Shown here: one piece after another, positions 1 through 52,850 of the stretch
How the letters are laid out: each line of letters starts with the position of its first letter
Numbering within the stretch: the stretch's first letter is position 1
Assembly: GCA_017630215.1 (NCBI GenBank)
Contig: JAGBVR010000015.1
Location: 1 to 64,000 of the forward strand
Direction of reading: 5' to 3'
DNA: 64,000 bases
Origin: Bacteroidales bacterium
GTDB lineage: Bacteria; Bacteroidota; Bacteroidia; Bacteroidales; UBA932
The notes under the pieces: generated by a model
Database searches by the model: none
Seen by the model: the letters and a program-made list of their open reading frames with translations, nothing else
What the model was told of the DNA's origin: nothing
Made by a program: the position numbers and the translations under genes

Positions 1-113
1 ATTGCGAGGGCACGGACCGTGGCAATCTCCCATCTTAATCCTTAGGGCGATCAAGAAGAATGGTTGCTTCCTTCCTGACTATCAAATCTGTATATGTAAT
101 CTCCAGTCTGAAA

Positions 114-206
114 CCTTGGAACACACGTAGGATCCCTTGGACGCATCTATTGAGGATCTGCGTATTCGAAGGTCGTGGACTGAATACCTTGAGACACACG
201 AATACG
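114..206. repeat. CCTTGGAACAC element, degenerate pair
   Basis: An exact CCTTGGAACAC lies at 114-124. It is followed by an inverted, diverged copy (GTATTCGAAGG, about 162-172) and a diverged direct copy (CCTTGAGACAC from 187). The head-to-head arrangement matches the units near the RAYT gene at 16.8 kb. Confidence 0.6.
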
Positions 207-403
207 TAGTCAATTGAGTGATTCTGCGATCTTTGTCTTCAAAAGTTTCGAGGCAAACAATTCACTAAGATATTCTGTCAGCCCATTGAGCGGAATATCA
301 TCATCTGGCTGCACTCCAGTCGCTAAACGTGTATGGAATCAGCACCAATGAGCGGCGGGAGGACATACTTAGAAGAATACCTACAGAAAAGAGCGTTGGC
401 CAG

Positions 404-13836: not shown

Positions 13837-15303
13837 CTATCCATGAATGGCCGACTGAAGGATTTCAGTCAGGGTCGGATGAGTGTGGATTATGCTCTGA
13901 AATTGGCTTAAATTGGCCTTGCGGTTTATGAGGGCGCAGGCCTCCTGGACAATGTCGGAAGCATGCGGGCCGTAGAGATGACAGCCGAGAATCAGGCCGT
14001 CGGCGGCGGAAACGACTAGTTTGCAGAAGCCGTCGGTCTGACCCATTGTCACCGCCTTGCCGTTGGCACGGAAGAAGGACTTCAGGCATTTCACGTCAAT
14101 CCCCTTTTCCTTGCATTCGTCCTCGGTCAATCCGACGCTTGCAGCCTCGGGCGAAGTGAATACAGCGGCCGGCATCACATTCAGGTCAATATCATTCGGG
14201 ATGCCCATGATGTGGTCGAGGGCGACGATCCCTTGGAAGGTCGCGGCATGAGCCAGCATCATCTGACCGTTGATGTCACCGATGGCATAGATATGAGGGA
14301 TATTGGTCTGCATGAATTCATTGACTTTCACACCCTTAGAATGAGTTTCAATGCCTGCATCCGAGAAGTTGAGCGAGTTCAGGGCGGCACGTCTTCCGAC
14401 AGCCATAAGAACCTTGTCAGCGACGACTTTTTCTTCTTTGCCTTTGCGGAGGAAGGTGATTTCGTATTCGGTTTTTTCTTCGGATCCGGTGTGCTTGATC
14501 TGTATTTCTGTCACCTGCGACTGCGTATTGATCTCGATGCCGCGTTTACCCAGACTTTGCTTCAATCTCTTGGCAAGATCCGTATCGAAACGAGGCAGGA
14601 TGTCCTTGCAATATTCGATGACGGTGACTTCACTGCCGAAACTACGGAAAATCGAAGCGAATTCCAGTCCGATGACACCACCTCCGATGACACACAGACG
14701 GTTCGGAACGTGGTCAATATCAAGGATTTCCTTGGAGGTCAGGATACCGGGAAGGTCGGCTCCAGGGATCGGTAGAGATGAGGAGACTGAACCTGTTGCG
14801 ACGATGATGTAGTCGGCGGTGTAGTCTTGGGGAACTGGTGATTTTTGACCAGCTGGATCCGGGATTGCCGGCGGAAAGGTTCCGGTAGCTTCCGGGATTG
14901 GCTCAGACTCCATCTGAGTTTCTGAAGACGGGACATTCGGAATGACCGAAACAGTGCGGACATCTTTGAAGAATGCACGGCCTCTGACCAGGGTTATGAG
15001 CTTATTTTTGAGAAGGGTTTCAACACCGGATTTCAGCTGTTCCACTACAGCATTTTTCCTCTCTGTCACTTTACTGAAGTCTAACTTGAAATCAAGCTTG
15101 CCAACTCCGTATTTATCAGCTTCTTGAAGCTGGTCTATAAACTCTGCATTTTTACAGAAGGATTTGGTCGGAATGCAGCCTTCATTGAGACAGGTTCCCC
15201 CTACAGGACCGGCCTCGATGAGCACGGTTTCCACTCCTCTTTTTGCAGCCAGAAGTGCGGTCTCGTATCCGCCCGGTCCGGCACCGATTATGATGATTTT
15301 CAT
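13837..15303 (-). CDS. lpdA: Dihydrolipoyl dehydrogenase
   Basis: This 488-residue FAD-dependent oxidoreductase reoxidises the dihydrolipoyl arm of the glycine cleavage H protein or of 2-oxoacid dehydrogenases, using NAD+. The FAD-binding GAGPGG is at residues 7-12. The redox disulfide is Cys38/Cys43 in GGTCLNEGCIPTK. The NAD-binding motif GGGVIGLEFAS lies near 207. The C-terminal catalytic His475-Glu480 dyad is in HPTLTE. Residues about 121-159 form a Pro/Ser/Glu-rich insertion that is not standard for the family. The gene is separated from the gcv operon by 4.2 kb of repeats and a RAYT gene, but the functional link is clear. Confidence 0.93.
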   Translation of the reverse strand: MKIIIIGAGPGGYETALLAAKRGVETVLIEAGPVGGTCLNEGCIPTKSFCKNAEFIDQLQEADKYGVGKLDFKLDFSKVTERKNAVVEQLKSGVETLLKNKLITLVRGRAFFKDVRTVSVIPNVPSSETQMESEPIPEATGTFPPAIPDPAGQKSPVPQDYTADYIIVATGSVSSSLPIPGADLPGILTSKEILDIDHVPNRLCVIGGGVIGLEFASIFRSFGSEVTVIEYCKDILPRFDTDLAKRLKQSLGKRGIEINTQSQVTEIQIKHTGSEEKTEYEITFLRKGKEEKVVADKVLMAVGRRAALNSLNFSDAGIETHSKGVKVNEFMQTNIPHIYAIGDINGQMMLAHAATFQGIVALDHIMGIPNDIDLNVMPAAVFTSPEAASVGLTEDECKEKGIDVKCLKSFFRANGKAVTMGQTDGFCKLVVSAADGLILGCHLYGPHASDIVQEACALINRKANLSQFQSIIHTHPTLTEILQSAIHG

Positions 15304-15331
15304 ATGTGGTTTTTGTTATCAGTTTCAGTTA

Positions 15332-15339
15332 CAAATTTA
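15332..15339 (-). promoter_or_regulatory. Putative lpdA promoter (-7 box)
   Basis: TAAATTTG on the minus strand matches TAnnTTTG 28 nt upstream of the lpdA ATG. No clear -33 TTTG was picked out. Confidence 0.45.
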
Positions 15340-15465
15340 GTGATTTATGTGAGATTTATGGTTTTCAGGTGAGAAATTTATATGGTCTGAATCGGAGGAT
15401 GAGAAAACGTGAGACAGTTCGGTCTGACGAGACGGATAGAAGCAGCAGTATTCAGAAGGAAAGTT

Positions 15466-15494
15466 AATGTTCCACGGTCCTAGCGTGGAACATT
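15466..15494. repeat. Hairpin variant of the CCTTGGAACAC family
   Basis: AATGTTCCACG (15466-15476) and CGTGGAACATT (15484-15494) form a perfect 11-bp stem with a 7-nt loop. The arms contain the CCGTGGAACA variant also seen at 17721 and 17765, so this is probably a REP-like element folded on itself. A T-rich stretch follows on the plus strand. Confidence 0.55.
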
Positions 15495-15576
15495 TTGTCT
15501 GATTTTTATAAAATTCCGAACAAATTTCATCTTCAAAACAAGCCTCTCACTAGTCTGCAAAGGCGATTTTGAAAGA

Positions 15577-15605
15577 TAGCCGTATTCTTTTTGAATATAC
15601 GGCTA
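15577..15605. repeat. GAATATACGGCT hairpin, copy 1
   Basis: TAGCCGTATTC (15577-15587) pairs with GAATATACGGCTA (15593-15605) apart from a 2-nt bulge. The right arm is nearly the same as that of the hairpin at 56149-56178 after the nuclease gene. Apart from this, 15495-15950 shows nothing convincing. A minus-strand frame over 15533-15814 has a hydrophobic stretch but no recognisable family. Confidence 0.5.
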
Positions 15606-15939
15606 ATGGTCCGGAACTTTGCATCTGTAAATATTGAATATAATGATATGGGAAAGAATATTGGGACATTGACATATAGAGCAAGGAAGATGTAGGTGAT
15701 GATTGTCCAGCCATTGAGACTATGGTCATCCCACATTCCCAATGCCACATTCACAGCATATGTTGGCGATTTACAAGCCGATGAGCAGCATTTTGAGGTG
15801 AAGGCCGTTGCCACCCTTGATTGGGACTTGACGATTTTCCGAGCCGATGAGCAGCTGGAGTGTCTGGATTTCTCCTTTCATTTGTGACGAATCCTTTGAA
15901 TCCGGTTCCCTGATTATGAGATGAACGTCCACTGGATTT

Positions 15940-16748
15940 GGGGGTCCAAACCTTGGAACACAGCTGATGGTGACATTGATTGTACATTGAAGATTTTTGT
16001 TTTCCAAGGTAATCTTGGGATGACCTTGAAACACATTGAAGCAGAACGGGTTCGCCAGATTGGGGATCTTTGTGCCCGAAGGTTTAAGGGAGATGGTTGC
16101 GGGACTGGACTCGATGGTTTACGGGAGATGATTACAGGTAGGAAATTGATGACAGTGTTATGGAAAAGATTGAAAAATACAGATCAGGAAAGCCTTTACA
16201 AGCTTAGGCTTTCCAAACCTTGGAACACAGGTGATGGCGACATTGATTGTACATTGAAGATTTTTGTTTTCCAAGATAATCTTGGGATGACCTTGAAACA
16301 CATTGAAGCAGAACGGGTTCGCCAGATTGGGGATCTTTGTGCCCGAAGGTTTAAGGGAGATGGTTGCGGGATTGGACTCAAAGGTTTAAGGGAGATGGTT
16401 ACAGGTAGGAAATTGATGACAGTGTTATGGAAAAGATTGAAAAATACAGATCAAGAAAGCCTTTACAAGCTTAGGCTTTCCAAACCTTGGAACACAGCTG
16501 ATGGTGACATTGATTGTTCATTGAAGATTTTTGTTTTCCAAGGTAATCTTGGGATGACCTTGAAACACATTGAAGCAGAACGGGGTCGCCAGGTTGGGGG
16601 TCTTTGTGCCCGAAGGTTTACGGGAGAGAGTTGCGGGATTGGACTCGAAGGCTTACGGGAGATGATGCAGGAGTGGACTCGATGGTTTACGGGAGATGAT
16701 GCAGGAAAGATTGAAGCCGAAAGATTGAGGGCAAAGTTTAAAGATTGA
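15940..16748. repeat. 267-bp tandem repeat, about three copies
   Basis: CCTTGGAACAC recurs at 15951, 16218 and 16485, exactly 267 bp apart each time, and the intervening sequence is nearly identical. Each unit also contains the inverted variant TTTTCCAAGGT, a CCTTGAAACAC variant and CCGAAGGTTTA. The third unit diverges near its end and runs into the RAYT gene. Because 267 is a multiple of three, a plus-strand frame stays open through the array (15921-16748, 275 residues). Its residues look unlike any protein I know, so I treat the array as DNA-level repeats. Confidence 0.85.
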
Positions 16749-16768
16749 ATATAAATAAGAAAGAAAAC

Positions 16769-17659
16769 ATGAAACACGATTTAGAAAAGGGATACTTCCA
16801 TATCTGTACAGATGGAAAGTCTATCCCGTGGATGTTCCAGGACGATGAGGATTTTATCAAAGGTATAAACAGAATCGGCATATGCATTATGAAGACCGCC
16901 GTTGCAGTGGAAGCATTCGTCTTGATGGACAACCATCTTCACTTCCTGCTATGGGGGAAAATGCCTGATTGCAAGAAATTTATCAACTTATATAAAAGGC
17001 TTACCGGAATATGGATATTGAAGAAGTATGGCATAGGGAATTATCTGCACGGTCTTCCGACAGAAATCATTCGATTGGAAAGCGAGGAAAGCCTGCTTAA
17101 CACGATAGCATACATTGATAGGAATCCACTTATTGCCGGTTACAGATATATGCCGGGAGAGTATCCGTGGGGATCTTCGCGATATATGTTCAGGGATACG
17201 GATTACGGAGATGATAAGGGTATGGTTGGAGTAAGAACTATTTCATCATTTACACGCAGAGAACAGAAATCAATATTGAATTCAAATATCATTGTTCCAT
17301 CTGACTGGAAAGTAAATGAAGCCGGAATGCTGGATCCACGATCGTTTATAGACATATCTGGTCAGGAAGCTTACTTCAGAAGTCCTATGAGATATTCATT
17401 TTTTCTGGCTAAAAAGCTTGAAGGAACTGTAGAACTGGAATTCAAAGAATCACAAAAAACATTTATACCGGACAAAGAGCTAAGATTAATTGTAAACCAA
17501 TTAGTTAAAAACCACTACGGGGTCTATGGCATACGCGAACTGGGAGTAAATGAAAGATTATATATCGCCAGAAAACTGAGATACAATTACGCTTCAACCC
17601 TCAAACAGATTTCTAGAATGGTCCTTCTTGACAAGGCTGCATTGGAGGGATTCATCTAG
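16769..17659 (+). CDS. REP-associated tyrosine transposase (RAYT, Y1/HUH family)
   Basis: This 296-residue protein is a predicted single-strand DNA endonuclease of the IS200-like Y1 superfamily. RAYTs are domesticated relatives that recognise and probably spread REP elements. The ATG at 16769 is preferred to the in-frame TTG at 16745 because AAGAAAG precedes it. The HUH motif is His56-Leu-His58 in MDNHLHFLLWG. The helix AYIDRNPLIAGY supplies the likely nucleophile Tyr115, and EYPWGSSRY is a further RAYT signature. Residues about 230-296 look like a C-terminal helix-turn-helix. No IS-like ends flank it; instead tandem and inverted CCTTGGAACAC elements lie on both sides. Confidence 0.85.
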   Translation: MKHDLEKGYFHICTDGKSIPWMFQDDEDFIKGINRIGICIMKTAVAVEAFVLMDNHLHFLLWGKMPDCKKFINLYKRLTGIWILKKYGIGNYLHGLPTEIIRLESEESLLNTIAYIDRNPLIAGYRYMPGEYPWGSSRYMFRDTDYGDDKGMVGVRTISSFTRREQKSILNSNIIVPSDWKVNEAGMLDPRSFIDISGQEAYFRSPMRYSFFLAKKLEGTVELEFKESQKTFIPDKELRLIVNQLVKNHYGVYGIRELGVNERLYIARKLRYNYASTLKQISRMVLLDKAALEGFI

Positions 17660-18090
17660 AAACATTTCCCCGTACTCTGCTGATCACATTAAAGATAGAT
17701 TTCACGAGCACAACCACAAACCGTGGAACACAATTAAAGATGCCAATACGATCATAGCTTCAAACCGTGGAACACATATACCGCTGACTATCGCGGCTCA
17801 TTGAAGAACAGCGTGTCTGAAGGTCACTTCAGAACAGAAGAGTTTGGAACACAGAGAATTGAATCAGAGTCATCATATTTGGTATTCTTGTGTTCGAAGG
17901 TTTCAGAAGTAAGCCATAATAGCTAACTTCATAATAATTTGATAGCTTAAGATTGACAGTTGAAGATTCTTGATCTAAATGGCAAATATCAAGAAAATCT
18001 CGATCAAAACAGATGATAAAAGATTCTGAAACTGGTCTCTAAAGCATAGGCGTCTCAACTAAACATTCAGGATGATAGAAAGGCAACAGT

Positions 18091-18169
18091 CAAGCGCGAG
18101 GACGGCCTTTGGGACGAGCCGCCCGCAGCGCTTGATCTGTAGTCGCCGGAGGTCGTATATTCCGGCGAC
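18091..18169. repeat. Double-hairpin module A
   Basis: CAAGCGC (18091-18097) pairs with GCGCTTG (18128-18134), enclosing a GC-rich loop. Seven nt later GTCGCCGGA (18142-18150) pairs perfectly with TCCGGCGAC (18161-18169) around a 10-nt loop. No gene or T-tract accompanies it. It could be a structured RNA or a hairpin target for the nearby Y1 enzyme. Confidence 0.5.
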
Positions 18170-18254
18170 GGTGCAGTTATTTGATAACCTTTTTCTGATA
18201 CACTTAATCTAAAAAGGCTTTGCATATGACCTTCAGCTATTCCACCGAGGATAC

Positions 18255-18404
18255 ATCTCACATAACTACAAACCTTGGAACACGCTCTGGATAAATTCAG
18301 GAGTCTTGTTGATGGTTCGTGTGTTCCAAGGTCTTCTATCAATGACCTTGGAACACACGAAAATACTATAGAATGCCCTAGCTAGACATCAGCGTGTTCG
18401 AAGG
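18255..18404. repeat. Composite CCTTGGAACAC unit, copy 1
   Basis: A forward element (18273-18283) and an inverted element (18321-18331) form an inverted pair about 37 nt apart. A second forward element (18346-18356) follows, paired with GTGTTCGAAGG (18394-18404). The internal text GCTCTGGATAAA and GTTGATGGTTCGTGTGT is shared with copies at 18.8 and 19.1 kb. Confidence 0.7.
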
Positions 18405-18622
18405 TTTACGGAGCGAAACATATATACATATAAAGATGCGCTGGAAGCACTCAGATTCGAAGGAACAACTGAAAAATTCTAAGAATTGTGATGGAATTAT
18501 CTTGTGGTATTTTTACTCGCTTCAGGAGAAAATCTTAGAAAACACGTTCTATGCTCGGAAGTAAAATAGTTAAAGTTTAAATGAGTCATATGAAATACAT
18601 AAATAATCGTAGGAGAAGCACC

Positions 18623-18699
18623 GTGGCCGGCAAATACTCCCGCCGGCCACTCCTCCAAGTGTGTGAAAGCGCAGCCAAAGGCTTTCACACACTTGGAGG
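18623..18699. repeat. Double-hairpin module B, perfect stems
   Basis: GTGGCCGGC (18623-18631) pairs perfectly with 18642-18650 around a 10-nt loop. After one base, a 19-bp perfect inverted repeat follows: 18652-18670 against 18681-18699, again with a 10-nt loop (GCAGCCAAAG). Two adjacent extended stems with equal loop sizes, about 1 kb from a Y1-type transposase gene, suggest a recombinase target or a structured RNA. Confidence 0.65.
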
Positions 18700-18788
18700 T
18701 GCCTGCAGAAAGAATACTTGATTATGGAATGGACTTTATTGACAACCTAAAATTCATTTTACCCCAAAATCAGATATCATTACTACAA

Positions 18789-18951
18789 TCACACATTAAA
18801 GTCTTGCACCGATCACAAACCTTGGAACACGCTCTGGATAAAGTCAGGCGTCTCGTTGATGGTTCGTGTGTCTCAAGGGCATTGGTAGAAGACCTTGGAA
18901 CACACCGACATCCAATCTAATGTCCAGAGAGTTCTTTCGTGTGTCTGAAGG
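18789..18951. repeat. Composite CCTTGGAACAC unit, copy 2
   Basis: Forward element 18820-18830, inverted variant GTGTCTCAAGG (18867-18877), forward element 18893-18903 and inverted variant GTGTCTGAAGG (18941-18951). It shares CACACATTAAAG, GCTCTGGATAAA and GGCATTGGTAGAAGA text with the copy at 19.1 kb. Confidence 0.68.
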
Positions 18952-19075
18952 TTTGCGAAACATGATTTACGTCTGGGCGAGAGCGGAGATAAAGCTAGAA
19001 CAGCATAGATCAGTTCCTGCTAATTCAGATTACTTTCAATGATCGTATCATGGAGCTGAAATCATTACGGTAATC

Positions 19076-19236
19076 ACACATTAAAGGTATGCGCCAGTCA
19101 CAAACCTTGGAACACGCTCTGGATAAATCTAGGAGTCTTGTTGATGGTTCGTGTGTCTCAAGGGCATTAGTAGAAGACCTTGGAACACACGAAAATACTA
19201 TAGAACGACCCAGCTAGACATCAGCGTGCTCTAAGG
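19076..19236. repeat. Composite CCTTGGAACAC unit, copy 3
   Basis: Forward element 19105-19115, inverted variant GTGTCTCAAGG (19153-19163), forward element 19178-19188 and inverted variant GTGCTCTAAGG from 19226. It is 285 bp from the matching point of copy 2. Its 3' half matches copy 1 closely (ACGAAAATACTATAGAA; AGCTAGACATCAGCGTG). Confidence 0.68.
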
Positions 19237-19499
19237 TCAGTGGAACAGAATAGACATCAGCGTGCTCTAAGGTTTGCGGAACAGAATACGATAAAATCGA
19301 AGGGTTCCTAAAAGAAAACTAAACCAAAGAATGAAGGTTTCCAAGGTCATAAAACAGAATACGATAGAATCGAAGGGCTCCTGATTGAAAGCTGGAAAGC
19401 ACACTAAACCAAAGAATGAAAGTTTCCTAAACTTCAGATATTCAGCAGATAGATACAATTTCAAATTCAGCAGCATCCTACTGTACAGATAATGTAAAA

Positions 19500-19530
19500 C
19501 GCCGCACCCTTGCATGGTAAGGGCACGGCG
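19500..19530 (-). terminator. Terminator of the gcv operon
   Basis: CGCCG...CGGCG encloses CCCTT...AAGGG around an internal CA/CA mismatch. On the minus strand it is followed by TTTTACATT. It lies 21 nt past the gcvPB stop. Confidence 0.6.
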
Positions 19531-19551
19531 CGTATTGATTTATGATTTCTG

Positions 19552-21087
19552 TCAGACGAGATCCTTGTATCTAAGGATTGGCTGACGGGCAGCTGTGGTT
19601 TCATCGAGACGACCCACTGGAGTGTTATGTGGGGCTTCCTTGAAGTACTCCGGAGATTCCAGAGCTTCCTGAGCAAGTTTCCTCATCACTTCGATGAATT
19701 CATCCAGTGTTTCCTTCGACTCTGTTTCAGTCGGTTCGATCATAATGGACTGATGGAACAGAAGAGGGAAATAGATGGTCGGTGCATGGAATCCGTAGTC
19801 GAGAAGTCTTTTGGCGACATCCAGAGTGGTGACTCCTGTAGACTGGTCGGCAAGGCCGTCGAAGACGAATTCGTGCTTGCAGACTGTAGGAATCGGAAGC
19901 TTATAGACATCCTTTAGGGACTCCTTGATGTAATTGGCCCCTAAAACGGCCAAAGGACCGACTTTCTTTATGTTTTGCTTACCGAGCATCAGAATGTAGG
20001 TATAAGCTCTTAAAAGCACCCCGAAATTGCCCATAAAGCCGGAAATCTGACCGCAGGCCTGACATCCGCACTTGCATTCCGGTGCACATCCGCAGGCTGG
20101 ACCGAATGCGCCTGATCCTTCTGGAGAAGATGCACATTTGCAAGTTCCGTCAGCAATATACAAGGTACCGTCCTCAGCTTCCACAACTTTCGGTACAGGA
20201 AGATGCGAAGCAAGATGTGCTGCAACTCCTACCGGGCCAGATCCCGGACCGCCACCGCCGTGAGGGGTTGAGAAAGTCTTATGCAAATTAAGATGCAGGA
20301 CATCGAAGCCCATATCTCCCGGACGGACCACACCCATAAGCGGATTCATATTGGCTCCGTCATAGTAAAGCAGACCTCCGCAAGCATGTACGAGTGCAGC
20401 GATTTCCCTGATATCCTTTTCGAAGAGTCCGAGGGTATTCGGATTGGTCATCATGATACCGGCAATAGTATCGTCGAGAAGTGGCTTAAGATCCTCTACA
20501 TCAACAAGTCCCACTGGATTGGACTTTACCTGTACGATATCCAGTCCGCAGACTGCCGCGGAAGCAGGATTGGTTCCGTGCGCGCTGTCAGGGACAATGA
20601 TCTTCGTACGCTTTAGATCACCACGGGCGATGTGATATTGGCGTATCACCATAAGTCCGGTGAGCTCGCCGTGAGCTCCCGCGAACGGATCGAGGGTGAA
20701 TTCCGCCATACCTGTAATCGCTGAGAGTGCAGCTGCCAAGTCTTTATAAAGGCGCAATGCTCCCTGAACGGTCTCGGCTGGCTGCAATGGATGCAGACCT
20801 GCAAAGACAGGATTGGCAGCAATCTCTTCATTGATCTTAGGATTGTATTTCATCGTGCAGCTTCCCAGTGGGTAGAATCCGGAATCGACTCCGAAATTCA
20901 TCTGAGAAAGATTTGTATAATGACGCACGACATCAAGTTCGCTTACCTGAGGGAGAGCTGGTGCCTCTGAACGAAGCAGTCCTGCAGGTAGCTCAGAAAC
21001 TGTCGATTCCCACTTGTTGGCAGGGAGAGAATATCCTTGTCTTCCTTCCTTGGAAAGATCAAAGATCAGTTTATCGTAGTACTTCAT
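19552..21087 (-). CDS. gcvPB: Glycine dehydrogenase (P protein) subunit 2
   Basis: This 511-residue PLP-binding subunit of the two-chain P protein decarboxylates glycine and transfers aminomethyl to the GcvH lipoyl arm together with GcvPA. The PLP lysine is Lys270 in [29 protein letters not shown] and MMTNPNTLG are also conserved. Its ATG overlaps the gcvPA stop (ATGA). It is odd in having a Cys-rich insertion at about residues 312-348 with eight Cys (316, 318, 332, 334, 338, 340, 342, 345) in CxC-like spacing. Homologues I recall have a short linker there, before [10 protein letters not shown]. The insertion could bind metal or be redox-sensitive, but that is unproven. Confidence 0.93.
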
Positions 21088-22803: not shown

Positions 22804-22843
22804 AATTGTTATTAGTTATATTGGTTTATAGATTCTCACGTCG

Positions 22844-23004
22844 CTGCGCTCCTCAGAATGACAGAGGGGGCTGCGCTCCTCAGAATGACAGAGGGGGCTG
22901 CGTTCTTCTGAATGACAGAGGGGGCTGCGGTCTGCTGAATGACAGTGGGGGCAGCGTTCTTCAGAATGACAGTGGGGGCTGCGTTCTTCTGAATGACAGA
23001 GTGG
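22844..23004. repeat. 27-bp tandem array between gcvT and gcvH
   Basis: Six units begin at 22844, 22871, 22898, 22925, 22952 and 22979, exactly 27 bp apart. The consensus is CTGCGTTCTTCAGAATGACA followed by GAGGGGG. The array starts with GATTCTCACGTCG and ends at the gcvT stop. Related units with a 19-bp hairpin occur at 35018-35119. There are no spacers, so it is not a CRISPR. Confidence 0.85.
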
Positions 23005-25937: not shown

Positions 25938-26477
25938 TGAAAAAGTTTCAATCATTATCCAGCCTGGTATTTATTTTTAATGAATGATATACAAGGTTAC
26001 ACTGAAATATATCAATATTCCGCAAACCTTCAGATACATAATCTTCCAATACCTCTACCACATAGTACTTCCATGTGTTCCAAGGCATTCCGCACTTTAC
26101 CTTCGAAAACAAGAATCGTCATCGGGTACTTCACAGTAGCGACAAACGTGTTCCAAGGTTTATGTATGGAAAAATATACTCGCTAATGTCTGGATGCATT
26201 GCTGACGGAATATGCAGGGCGAGCCTTCATATAGAACTTTCACGCAATCTGCAAAATATCCTGTGCCTCACGAATCAGGGAAAATCCTGTAGTAGTACAT
26301 TAAAAGGAACAAGAATTCTCACAAGAATCATTTCCCGTTACCCGTATGAGGATTAATCAAGAGAGACTTTCTAATCGCTTTCTTGTTGGAAACTGAAATA
26401 TCATCCCTTTTTAAGTAAAAATCAGTAGAATACGGCATCATATATGTTTTCAGCGATTGAAGATAAAACGGACAGAT
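25938..26477. other. Gene-free gap with CCTTGGAACAC-type elements
   Basis: Two exact GTGTTCCAAGG elements lie at 26075-26085 and 26148-26158. A diverged opposite-facing copy (AACCTTCAGATACA) is near 26026 and ACCTTCGAAAACA is near 26099. The remainder to 26477 shows no convincing gene. Confidence 0.6.
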
Positions 26478-39037: not shown

Positions 39038-39132
39038 TCAGATCAGCATATAAGCATTAAGCTAGCATTTGAAAGTTAATGAAACCTACGAACACGGAGA
39101 TCGCGAGCTCCTTGTCCGTACAGTACATCAAT

Positions 39133-39143
39133 GTGTTCCAAGG
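39133..39143. repeat. Solo GTGTTCCAAGG element
   Basis: An exact 11-mer copy lies in the 130-bp gap between the LuxR-type gene and the GH3 gene. No inverted partner is close, so it is an orphan copy of the RAYT-associated family. Confidence 0.55.
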
Positions 39144-39167
39144 TATTCCATTGGATGACCCCTATTT

Positions 39168-45090: not shown

Positions 45091-45426
45091 ATGTATATTG
45101 CCAGACCTTGGAGGCAACAAAATCCGGATGGACAGAAAATCCCTTTATAGTGTAGCTTAGATAGCTTGCTTGGAACATATACTCCAAATTTGTCAGCTGC
45201 GAAGTCTTGCAGTACACACATCCATCAAACCTTCGAACACATGGATTACGAAACCGCTATTTGTACTGCTCGTTCATGTGCTTCAAGGTCTTCAGCACTT
45301 TACCTCCGAACACACAAATCCTCGTTAAAACGCATATATCTTTCCTATGCGTATTCCAAGGTTTGGATTATTTTTCGCACAAAATAAACTTGTGAAACAC
45401 TCCGCTGCCGAAACATCGAAATCCGG

Positions 45427-45575
45427 CGGCTCGAATCATGGAGGACTGCTCAAATCTTGGAAGCAGCTCAAATCTTGGAAGATATCCCAAAACAAGAAAG
45501 ACAACTCAAATAATGAAAGACAATTTAAATCATGGAAGCTACCTAAACCATGAAAGACAAATCAAACCATAGAAA
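45427..45575. repeat. Degenerate 18-19-bp tandem repeat
   Basis: About eight units share the core CTCAAATCATGGAAAG with drift, for example CTCAAATCTTGGAAG twice, then CTCAAATAATGAAAG and TTTAAATCATGGAAG. The core resembles the AAACCTTGGAACA element and may derive from it by slippage. Confidence 0.6.
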
Positions 45576-52265: not shown

Positions 52266-52850
52266 ATGTTTTTCTATTAAAAACAATTGTGCGGGTTATC
52301 GCGTCTATCACTTTTGGAGTACCGGTTTATCTTAATCATCACATCCTTGCTCCTGAATCGATTGAAAATTCCGGATAACCATATCCATCGATACAATATC
52401 CTGAATGAATCTTCACGAAACCTTGAAATACAGAGGCATAATGAAGAGAATGAGGAGTGGGTCTGTGTGTTCGTAGGTTTCAAAGGATGAGTCGCAAAAG
52501 TATGTGTCTCGGTAATCCCCTGGAAGACCATTGATTCTTCGCTATGAAGTTTCACTTGGCTCGCTTCGAAACTTTGGAGCACGGTGATGTTCAATATGGA
52601 AGAGGAACTAGCGATTTATGTGTTCCAAGTTCTTCACTGACGCACCTTGGAACACAGAGAAGCGCAACATAGAGAGTGAGGAAATGGTCTGTGTGTTCAA
52701 AGGTTTCAATGACGCCGGAATTTGGAATGGATAAGAATATGATGTGACTTATACCTCGAAAATTCCGTTTGATTGAGCAAAAAGAATTTCATTTATGGGA
52801 AAGGGAACAAATTTATAAGTAATAACCTTGATGATTCAGAAATTAATACA
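52266..52850. other. Gene-free gap with CCTTGGAACAC-type elements
   Basis: It holds GAAACCTTGAAATACA (about 52418), GTGTTCGTAGG (about 52468), GTGTTCCAAGT (52620-52630), an exact CCTTGGAACAC (52645-52655) and GTGTTCAAAGG (52693-52703). The 52620/52645 pair is a close inverted repeat. No gene is supported. Confidence 0.65.

Follow-up and report, generated by a model that had tools for sequence, protein, structure and literature searches.

In E. coli and others, the TnpAREP proteins, also known as RAYTs (REP-associated tyrosine transposases, where REP stands for repetitive extragenic palindrome), recognise folded single strands (PMC8266576), and in REPINs, which are paired REPs, compensatory changes are common and the spacers are constant in length (PMC3116915). 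For subclass 2.6, the Bacteroidetes proteins of RAYT group 5, the main text of PMC6006769 reports atypical repeats without GTAG, described just as atypical structures found by eye, and its Table 1 gives a median length of 179 aa and the tyrosine motif YIH[QN]NP; that main text contains no repeat sequence or geometry for the subclass, its supplement being outside the scope of the comparison. For subclass 2.1, no REP-like sequences are reported there (PMC6006769). The TIRYTs, the related proteins associated with terminal inverted repeats (TIRs), are described with the motif GGGGWSAS, with some TIRs being double palindromes and some forming moderately abundant families (PMC3733652). The present analysis concerns a stretch of 64,000 nucleotides from a Bacteroidales genome (contig JAGBVR010000015.1; the whole stretch is referred to below as the window). 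It contains a gene for a RAYT-like HUH/Y1 protein of 296 aa (16769..17659, plus strand), consisting of a catalytic core and a conserved C-terminal part, and copies of a 138-bp repeat carrying four short sites, called here the four-site unit. As with RAYTs, cognate repeats flank the gene and lie dispersed between genes.

The initial annotation of the window had listed 15 exact copies of the 11-mer CCTTGGAACAC, and all were found at the places and on the strands given, with 0.03 expected and none of 100 shuffles reaching 15. A search with two mismatches yielded 58 matches in the window versus 14.4 expected, and in the whole genome (G000; 2.26 Mb, 57.8% complete) 36 exact copies stand against 4 matches to the backward-read pattern. 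Each 11-mer represents one site of a four-site unit, in which forward (F) and inverted (R) sites follow each other in the order F-R-F-R at spacings of 48, 25 and 48 bp, according to the formula AAA-CCTTSGAACAC-N37-inverted-N14-site-N37-inverted-TTT. In the best preserved copy (18270..18407), which has one mismatch over its four sites, this arrangement is produced by two nested inverted repeats, the outer one of 17 nt and the inner one of 18 nt. The material for unit counts was the window and 20 fetched stretches of the same genome, where a scan by geometry revealed 25 complete units (10 from the window, 15 from the stretches), five overlapping partial matches being omitted (three in the window, two in stretches L068 and L076). 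The same scan of one shuffled and one reversed window gave no complete unit. When site pairs not more than 200 bp apart were counted in the same material with up to two mismatches and no spacing rule, the F-R distance was 48 in 41 of 75 pairs, the R-F distance 25 in 23 of 26 and the F-F distance 73 in 22 of 39, tandem copies being included.

The consensus was built from 17 non-redundant units, omitting 7 to 8 redundant ones and the unit of stretch L072, which has one spacing of 49. All 17 begin with AAA and end with TTT; the redundant copy at 19105 has TCA at the right end. Pairwise agreement amounts to 80-87% in the sites, about 37% in the N37, N14 and N37 spacers and about 34% beyond the ends, so the spacers are variable in sequence and nearly constant in length. 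Over 20 units, AAA precedes the outer sites in 100% of cases, the inner sites have just one preceding A (85%), and a weaker motif extends 3' of the site, with A at +11 and +15. With its constant AAA and TTT termini and the low agreement beyond them, the element is thus bounded, and it has 14-bp terminal inverted repeats.

The copies form subfamilies with common spacers, in either orientation. Many pairwise similarities between copies end at or near the unit ends, and others run at least 60 bp past them; the ends of alignment blocks at sites were also considered as a sign of cleavage, which was rejected because conserved sites would produce such ends in any case. As judged by an open reading frame (ORF) proxy, the dispersed units are mostly intergenic. 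They lie in divergent, convergent and co-directional gaps alike, and their reading as terminators or promoter elements was dropped for this reason. The earlier statement that all copies are intergenic holds for most units, and three overlaps with frames depart from it: at the half unit 39085, the scored span of 138 bp runs 52 bp into a 735-codon frame, the unit of stretch L076 extends 14 bp into a 120-codon frame, and the tandem array beside the gene lies within a 275-codon frame formed by the repeat itself. A search of Rfam with positions 15300-19600 gave three microRNA matches far under the cut-off, which were taken as chance, and plasmid records contained no match to the unit.

Homologues of the protein were found at E ≤ 0.001 in 166 of 200 genomes of the genus (the sample also used for copy numbers), often as several paralogues. 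A close group, with 45-63% identity to the window protein, was detected in 17 of 400 genus genomes, the window's own included, with one match per genome at E ≤ 1e-58, and is absent from the other 294 genomes of the order sample at E ≤ 1e-45. In all 17 close loci, again including that of the window, a four-site unit lies within 1.5 kb of the gene, and in 14 of them units lie on both sides. The initial annotation had described the gene as having no insertion sequence ends, which is corrected by these flanking units, present on both sides in the window as well. With a stricter score, 16 of the 17 loci had units, and 503 kb of shuffles gave 1.

Altogether 138 homologous loci were used: the 17 close ones and 121 distant ones, the latter comprising 21 loci, 98 further places among the matches listed (two listed places omitted) and the two other paralogues of G000. 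The search assumed neither core nor spacing, and its null was 503 kb of dinucleotide shuffles. Units were present in 81 of the 121 distant loci, among the matches listed, and none was found in the shuffles; a stricter score and a narrower range left 65 of the 121 among those matches. Shuffles were the only null for RAYT flanks, because reversal preserves inverted repeats and the reversed-sequence control, which itself yielded units, was worthless. The cores of the close loci differ and include CCTTSGAACAC (window), CCTTAGGCCAC, CCTSAGAGC, CCCTTGGGA, CCGTTGAGCGG (several loci) and others. Over the 17 close loci, the distance between cores correlates with the distance between proteins (Mantel r 0.665, p 0.0001). 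That each relative has a gene and a site version of its own suggests that the two evolve together, and we regard the cognate pairing of the RAYT with its four-site unit as very well founded.

The copy numbers were compared in the 200 genomes. Exact CCTTGGAACAC occurs 36 times in G000, 25 times in G169 (a sister species), 6 times in G116 and at most 3 times in each of the remaining genomes. The counts of CCGTTGAGCGG are 45 in G169, 27 in G021, 21 in G187 and 16 in G007, with at most 5 elsewhere; RAYT flanks carry this core in G021, G187 and G169, and likewise in G066, which has just 3 exact copies. The association of CCGTTGAGCGG abundance with a flanking RAYT has a hypergeometric p of 1.2e-5, the cut of more than 10 copies having been picked after the counts were seen. 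The core of a distant paralogue of G081, GTAGACGGTCC, occurs 33 times in that genome and at most 4 times in each of 41 others. CCTTGGAACAC thus exceeds 6 copies in G000 and G169 alone, and the refuting condition named initially, equal abundance of the element in relatives without the RAYT gene, is partly realised, in G169.

As was proposed initially, the window protein carries the Y1/HUH residues, and H56, H58 and Y115 are invariant in all 138 loci. N119, Y132 and W134 are conserved in 99% of them, P120 in just 54%, and in the C-terminal part Q280 is found in 100% and R283 in 96%. The window protein reads YIDRNP at the tyrosine motif, where the commonest letters across the loci are Y-V-L-R-N-P. 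The length of the homologues is 272-330 aa (median 291). The NCBIfam model NF047646 REP_Tyr_transpos scores 28 bits with the window protein (cut-off 80, E 1.7e-6), and the Pfam model Y1_Tnp scores 15.5 bits (gathering score 23); they match 50 and 29, respectively, of 60 aligned members at E ≤ 0.01. Both scores with the window protein are under the cut-offs, so it is a distant member of the family. A sequence search of the PDB gave no match (E ≤ 1 for the single protein, E ≤ 0.1 for the profile), nor did PHROGs at E ≤ 1 or plasmid and phage records at E ≤ 1e-3. Distant paralogues number several per genome; from the single close match per genome and the lack of plasmid and phage matches, the gene is to all appearances single-copy and domesticated.

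The distance between same-orientation sites differs among relatives. Among the 98 unit-bearing loci of the matches listed, the best period is 51-54 bp in 50, 71-73 bp in 32, 61-63 bp in 5 and 82-85 bp in 5, 104-105 bp in 2, and 66, 77, 95 and 125 bp in 1 each. A step of 10.6 bp fits the 98 loci best (R 0.88), with 10.45-10.6 bp in subsets. When the helical step was assessed by 17 protein clusters, p was ≤2e-4 versus uniform periods; with the period classes weighted by loci it was 0.016, and with seven classes, leaving out two misfits, 0.00035. The 16 loci of this discovery set outside the two main classes retain the step (R 0.66, p 0.0004). On a FastTree protein tree of 93 loci, a bare count gives a minimum of 10 changes among five period classes. 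A hold-out was then made, in which the prediction was fixed beforehand and 27 further loci were fetched. Units were present in 19 of them (0 in shuffles), and the phase test gave p 0.0006, carried by the 51-54 and 71-74 classes. When these 16 discovery loci are pooled with the 7 such loci of the hold-out, the resulting 23 share the phase of the two main classes (p 0.002).

The best explanation of these data seems to be that a single-copy RAYT-like HUH/Y1 endonuclease has the 138-bp unit as its cognate non-autonomous element, which we hold to be moderately probable. Mobility of the unit through the RAYT, taken by itself, is likely. The RAYT would bind the sites of 11-12 bp as duplex, perhaps via its C-terminal part, with the same-orientation sites lying roughly on one face of the helix; the Y1 domain would then nick at the AAA/TTT outer ends and copy or move the unit, the RAYT gene itself staying fixed. 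For recognition of the sites as duplex DNA, in favour of which the spacing classes and the lack of compensation between inverted partners count, the chances appear slightly below even. More tentative is the proposal that a branch of RAYT-like proteins in this genus of gut Bacteroidales has moved from folded single-stranded to duplex DNA, with an HUH multimer on four sites of one face and with families that coexist and replace each other at given intergenic places. Docking of a multimer on one helix face would mean that unit length changes mostly by whole turns (~52, 62, 73, 84 bp). If such a branch exists, the site sequence would be expected to drift in step with the protein, and several protein-element families would occur per genome.

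A number of results weigh against this interpretation. In the hold-out, 10 of 19 loci deviate by no more than 1.5 bp from a multiple of 10.5, where ~38% is expected (12 of 19 after halving doubled periods), and the seven loci outside the two commonest classes (periods of 37, 58, 80, 81, 84, 114 and 128 bp) are not in phase (p 0.57). When nine period classes are taken as equals, with the misfits 66 and 77 included, p is 0.14. The hold-out thus agrees for the common classes and has exceptions: two or three classes are firm, and the complete helical ladder is likely, short of proof. The C-terminal part showed no Pfam domain, helix-turn-helix and Bac_DnaA_C included, either in 60 members at E ≤ 0.01 or in 10 separate C-terminal parts at E ≤ 10. 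A helix-turn-helix there is a possible interpretation, suggested by the sequence pattern and by subclass 2.1 as presented in PMC6006769, and is not a result. A long hairpin can form in the unit at 18270 (-36 kcal/mol under DNA parameters; -16 for each of two other units). The lack of compensation between inverted partners in 31 units (20 of G000, 11 of G169; F1-R2 z -2.0, R1-F2 z -1.7, F1-R1 z -1.5, F2-R2 z -1.8), which in itself speaks for the duplex reading, comes from a test whose power is limited by sites ~85% alike. G169, which is 86% complete, has its 25 exact CCTTGGAACAC copies and at least 11 complete units with no detected cognate RAYT, its nearest RAYT being 48% identical and flanked by the CCGTTGAGCGG core, and in G007 (61% complete) CCGTTGAGCGG units likewise occur without a close RAYT. 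Since both assemblies are incomplete, the cognate gene may be absent from the assembly or lost; as a clean test of presence and absence, the CCTTGGAACAC count failed for G169 and the CCGTTGAGCGG count for G007.

The syntenic places of G169 speak for dispersal of the unit, within limits. On two contigs of G169, syntenic blocks of more than 300 bp are 67-96% identical to the window. The RAYT locus is represented by ~450 bp there versus ~4.2 kb in the window, the place of the complete unit 26024..26161 (first site at 26027) by ~27 bp versus ~471, and that of the complete unit 52569..52706 (first site at 52572) by ~191 bp versus 526, while ~130 bp around the half unit 39082..39146 (F-N37-R, first site at 39085) are absent. 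These absences fit insertion or deletion alike, and their edges differ from the exact unit ends. The hope of obtaining exact insertion ends from G169 failed, the absences being larger or smaller than one unit. In the G169 contigs C15 and C100 (L277-L279), compared with window positions 11357-63789 and searched for three families, 4 units were found in 54 kb, three of the CCGTTGAGCGG type and one of the CCTTGGAACAC type. All four fall in 3 of the 5 gaps where the window has units, two of them at contig ends, and the sister genome thus mostly carries units of another RAYT family at such places; the gap syntenic to 52569..52706 carries a unit of another family. By eye, a four-site unit of TCGAAAGCAC was also seen in L191 near 2576-2660, at a place where the genome of the window (L069) has two units of its own type.

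Classical REPIN behaviour would explain much of this arrangement differently. The inverted sites would pair as single-stranded hairpins and be cleaved by the RAYT, and the spacing would reflect hairpin geometry and recent common origin. Such a mechanism is known for TnpAREP of E. coli and others (PMC8266576), the spacers of REPINs are likewise constant in length (PMC3116915), and in unit 18270 the R-N-F part is a perfect inverted repeat of 18 nt within the whole-unit fold of -36 kcal/mol. However, the compensatory changes that REPINs commonly show (PMC3116915) were not seen between the inverted partners. The two long spacers are not complementary beyond the level found between units (0.32 within units vs 0.37 across units), and the 6 nt 5' of the site contain no GTAG/GTGG guide in any of the 40 sites of the 10 window units. 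Besides, hairpins need no helix-step spacing of same-orientation sites. We hold this alternative to be rather unlikely.

A still less probable possibility, which we would accept with considerable reluctance, is that the units serve a RAYT turned into a DNA-binding regulator or nucleoid-like factor as its operators or architectural sites and were spread by ordinary duplication. The strict geometry, the near-helical spacing classes and the tandem amplification beside the gene would all be natural for such sites. But the HUH motif and the tyrosine are invariant in all 138 loci, which suggests a need for catalysis, and neither the mixed orientation of the gaps that carry units nor the likeness of distant copies over the unit length speaks for regulation. 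That the units are a family of miniature inverted-repeat transposable elements of another transposase, adjacent to the RAYT by chance, is highly improbable in spite of the 14-bp terminal inverted repeats, the dispersal typical of such elements and the G169 units lacking a detected cognate RAYT, as units occur at 17 of 17 close and 81 of 121 distant RAYT loci among the matches listed and the cores of the close group change with the protein.

The remaining features of the window belong mostly to the surroundings of the RAYT gene. The 267-bp tandem array noticed initially was recovered at 15945..16666 with 2.7 copies and consists of three complete four-site units (15948..16085, 16215..16352 and 16482..16619), each with ~129 bp more. 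The open frame of 275 codons that spans it (15921-16748) reaches the cut-off of no family model and is probably not a gene; the repeat length of 267 bp is divisible by 3. Downstream of the RAYT gene lie a degenerate half unit (F-N37-R, 17839..17903) and the three composite units of the initial annotation, with first sites at 18273, 18820 and 19105, all of them complete units (18270..18407, 18817..18954 and 19102..19239, the last with TCA in place of TTT). A hairpin with perfect arms of 19 nt (18652-18670 and 18681-18699) is located within this field, at 18616-18711. About 80 bp of this hairpin have a counterpart (83%) at the syntenic position in G169, so it may be older than the RAYT field.

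Instead of the eight more loci announced for the rest of the window, four complete units were found outside 15940-19236, with first sites at 114 (111..248), 26027, 45230 (45227..45364) and 52572, together with the half unit at 39085 and a degenerate pair of sites with a spacing of 46 at 52421 (52418..52480). Tandem units of 18-19 bp (GCTCAAATCTTGGAAGCA) at 45429-45575 resemble half sites and lie 65 bp past the unit whose first site is at 45230. A 27-bp tandem repeat of 5.9 copies occupies 22843-23001, beside a frame that we take to be gcvH-like. In G116, long four-site arrays, partly of perfect copies, stand beside distant RAYT paralogues (C54, L273, 2463-2974; C105, L264, 2490-3075). Their periods are 128 and 84 bp, and the 128-bp array is off the helical ladder.

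In place of structures found by eye, these data give a precise definition of a Bacteroidetes RAYT repeat as a bounded four-site element with a cognate protein, a spacing rule and many versions. The recognition and spread of RAYT repeats thereby become a bench question, on duplex or single strand and on helical phase, and dozens of protein-site pairs become available for decoding the specificity of HUH proteins. None of the titles and abstracts surveyed dealt with RAYT sites in helical phase; with most subscription papers and the supplements outside this survey, an earlier report is possible.

The initial annotation had suggested a RAYT/REP-like system with a different recognition sequence. The RAYT-like protein and its protein-tied repeats without GTAG stand, and the term REP-like proved too narrow. 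The system shares with IS200/IS605 the HUH/Y1 superfamily and is unlike it in having one close copy per genome and N119 in a Y---N rather than Y---Q arrangement (no search for tnpB or IS605-type end hairpins was made). Like subclass 2.6 as described in the main text of PMC6006769, it has a Bacteroidetes host, repeats without GTAG and copies elsewhere in the genome, whereas the proteins there have a median of 179 aa and YIH[QN]NP and those here 272-330 aa and Y-V-L-R-N-P. With the TIRYT/TIRtron systems and TnpAY1 subclass 2.1 it has in common a long RAYT-like protein with a C-terminal extension (PMC3733652, PMC6006769) and, with the TIRYTs, inverted repeats on either side of the gene that bear no relation to GTAG REPs (PMC3733652). 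The TIRYT motif GGGGWSAS does not appear in the consensus sites compared, those from the 17 close loci, and a fixed four-site geometry or spacing classes are not described in the TIRYT account (PMC3733652). As in the RAYT/TnpAREP systems with REPs or REPINs (REPtrons, class 2 TnpAY1) of E. coli, Pseudomonas and Stenotrophomonas, an HUH protein with a single tyrosine occurs in low copy, its own repeats flank the gene and are found between genes elsewhere, and protein and repeat co-vary; in contrast to them, the window system is without a GT[AG]G foot and compensatory pairing, and has four sites in two inverted pairs, a same-orientation spacing near helical steps and a long C-terminal part. As far as sequence comparison allows one to judge, the system pairs a distant member of the RAYT-like proteins with a cognate element that is bounded, intergenic and built of four sites, and it is kin to the RAYT and TIRYT systems.

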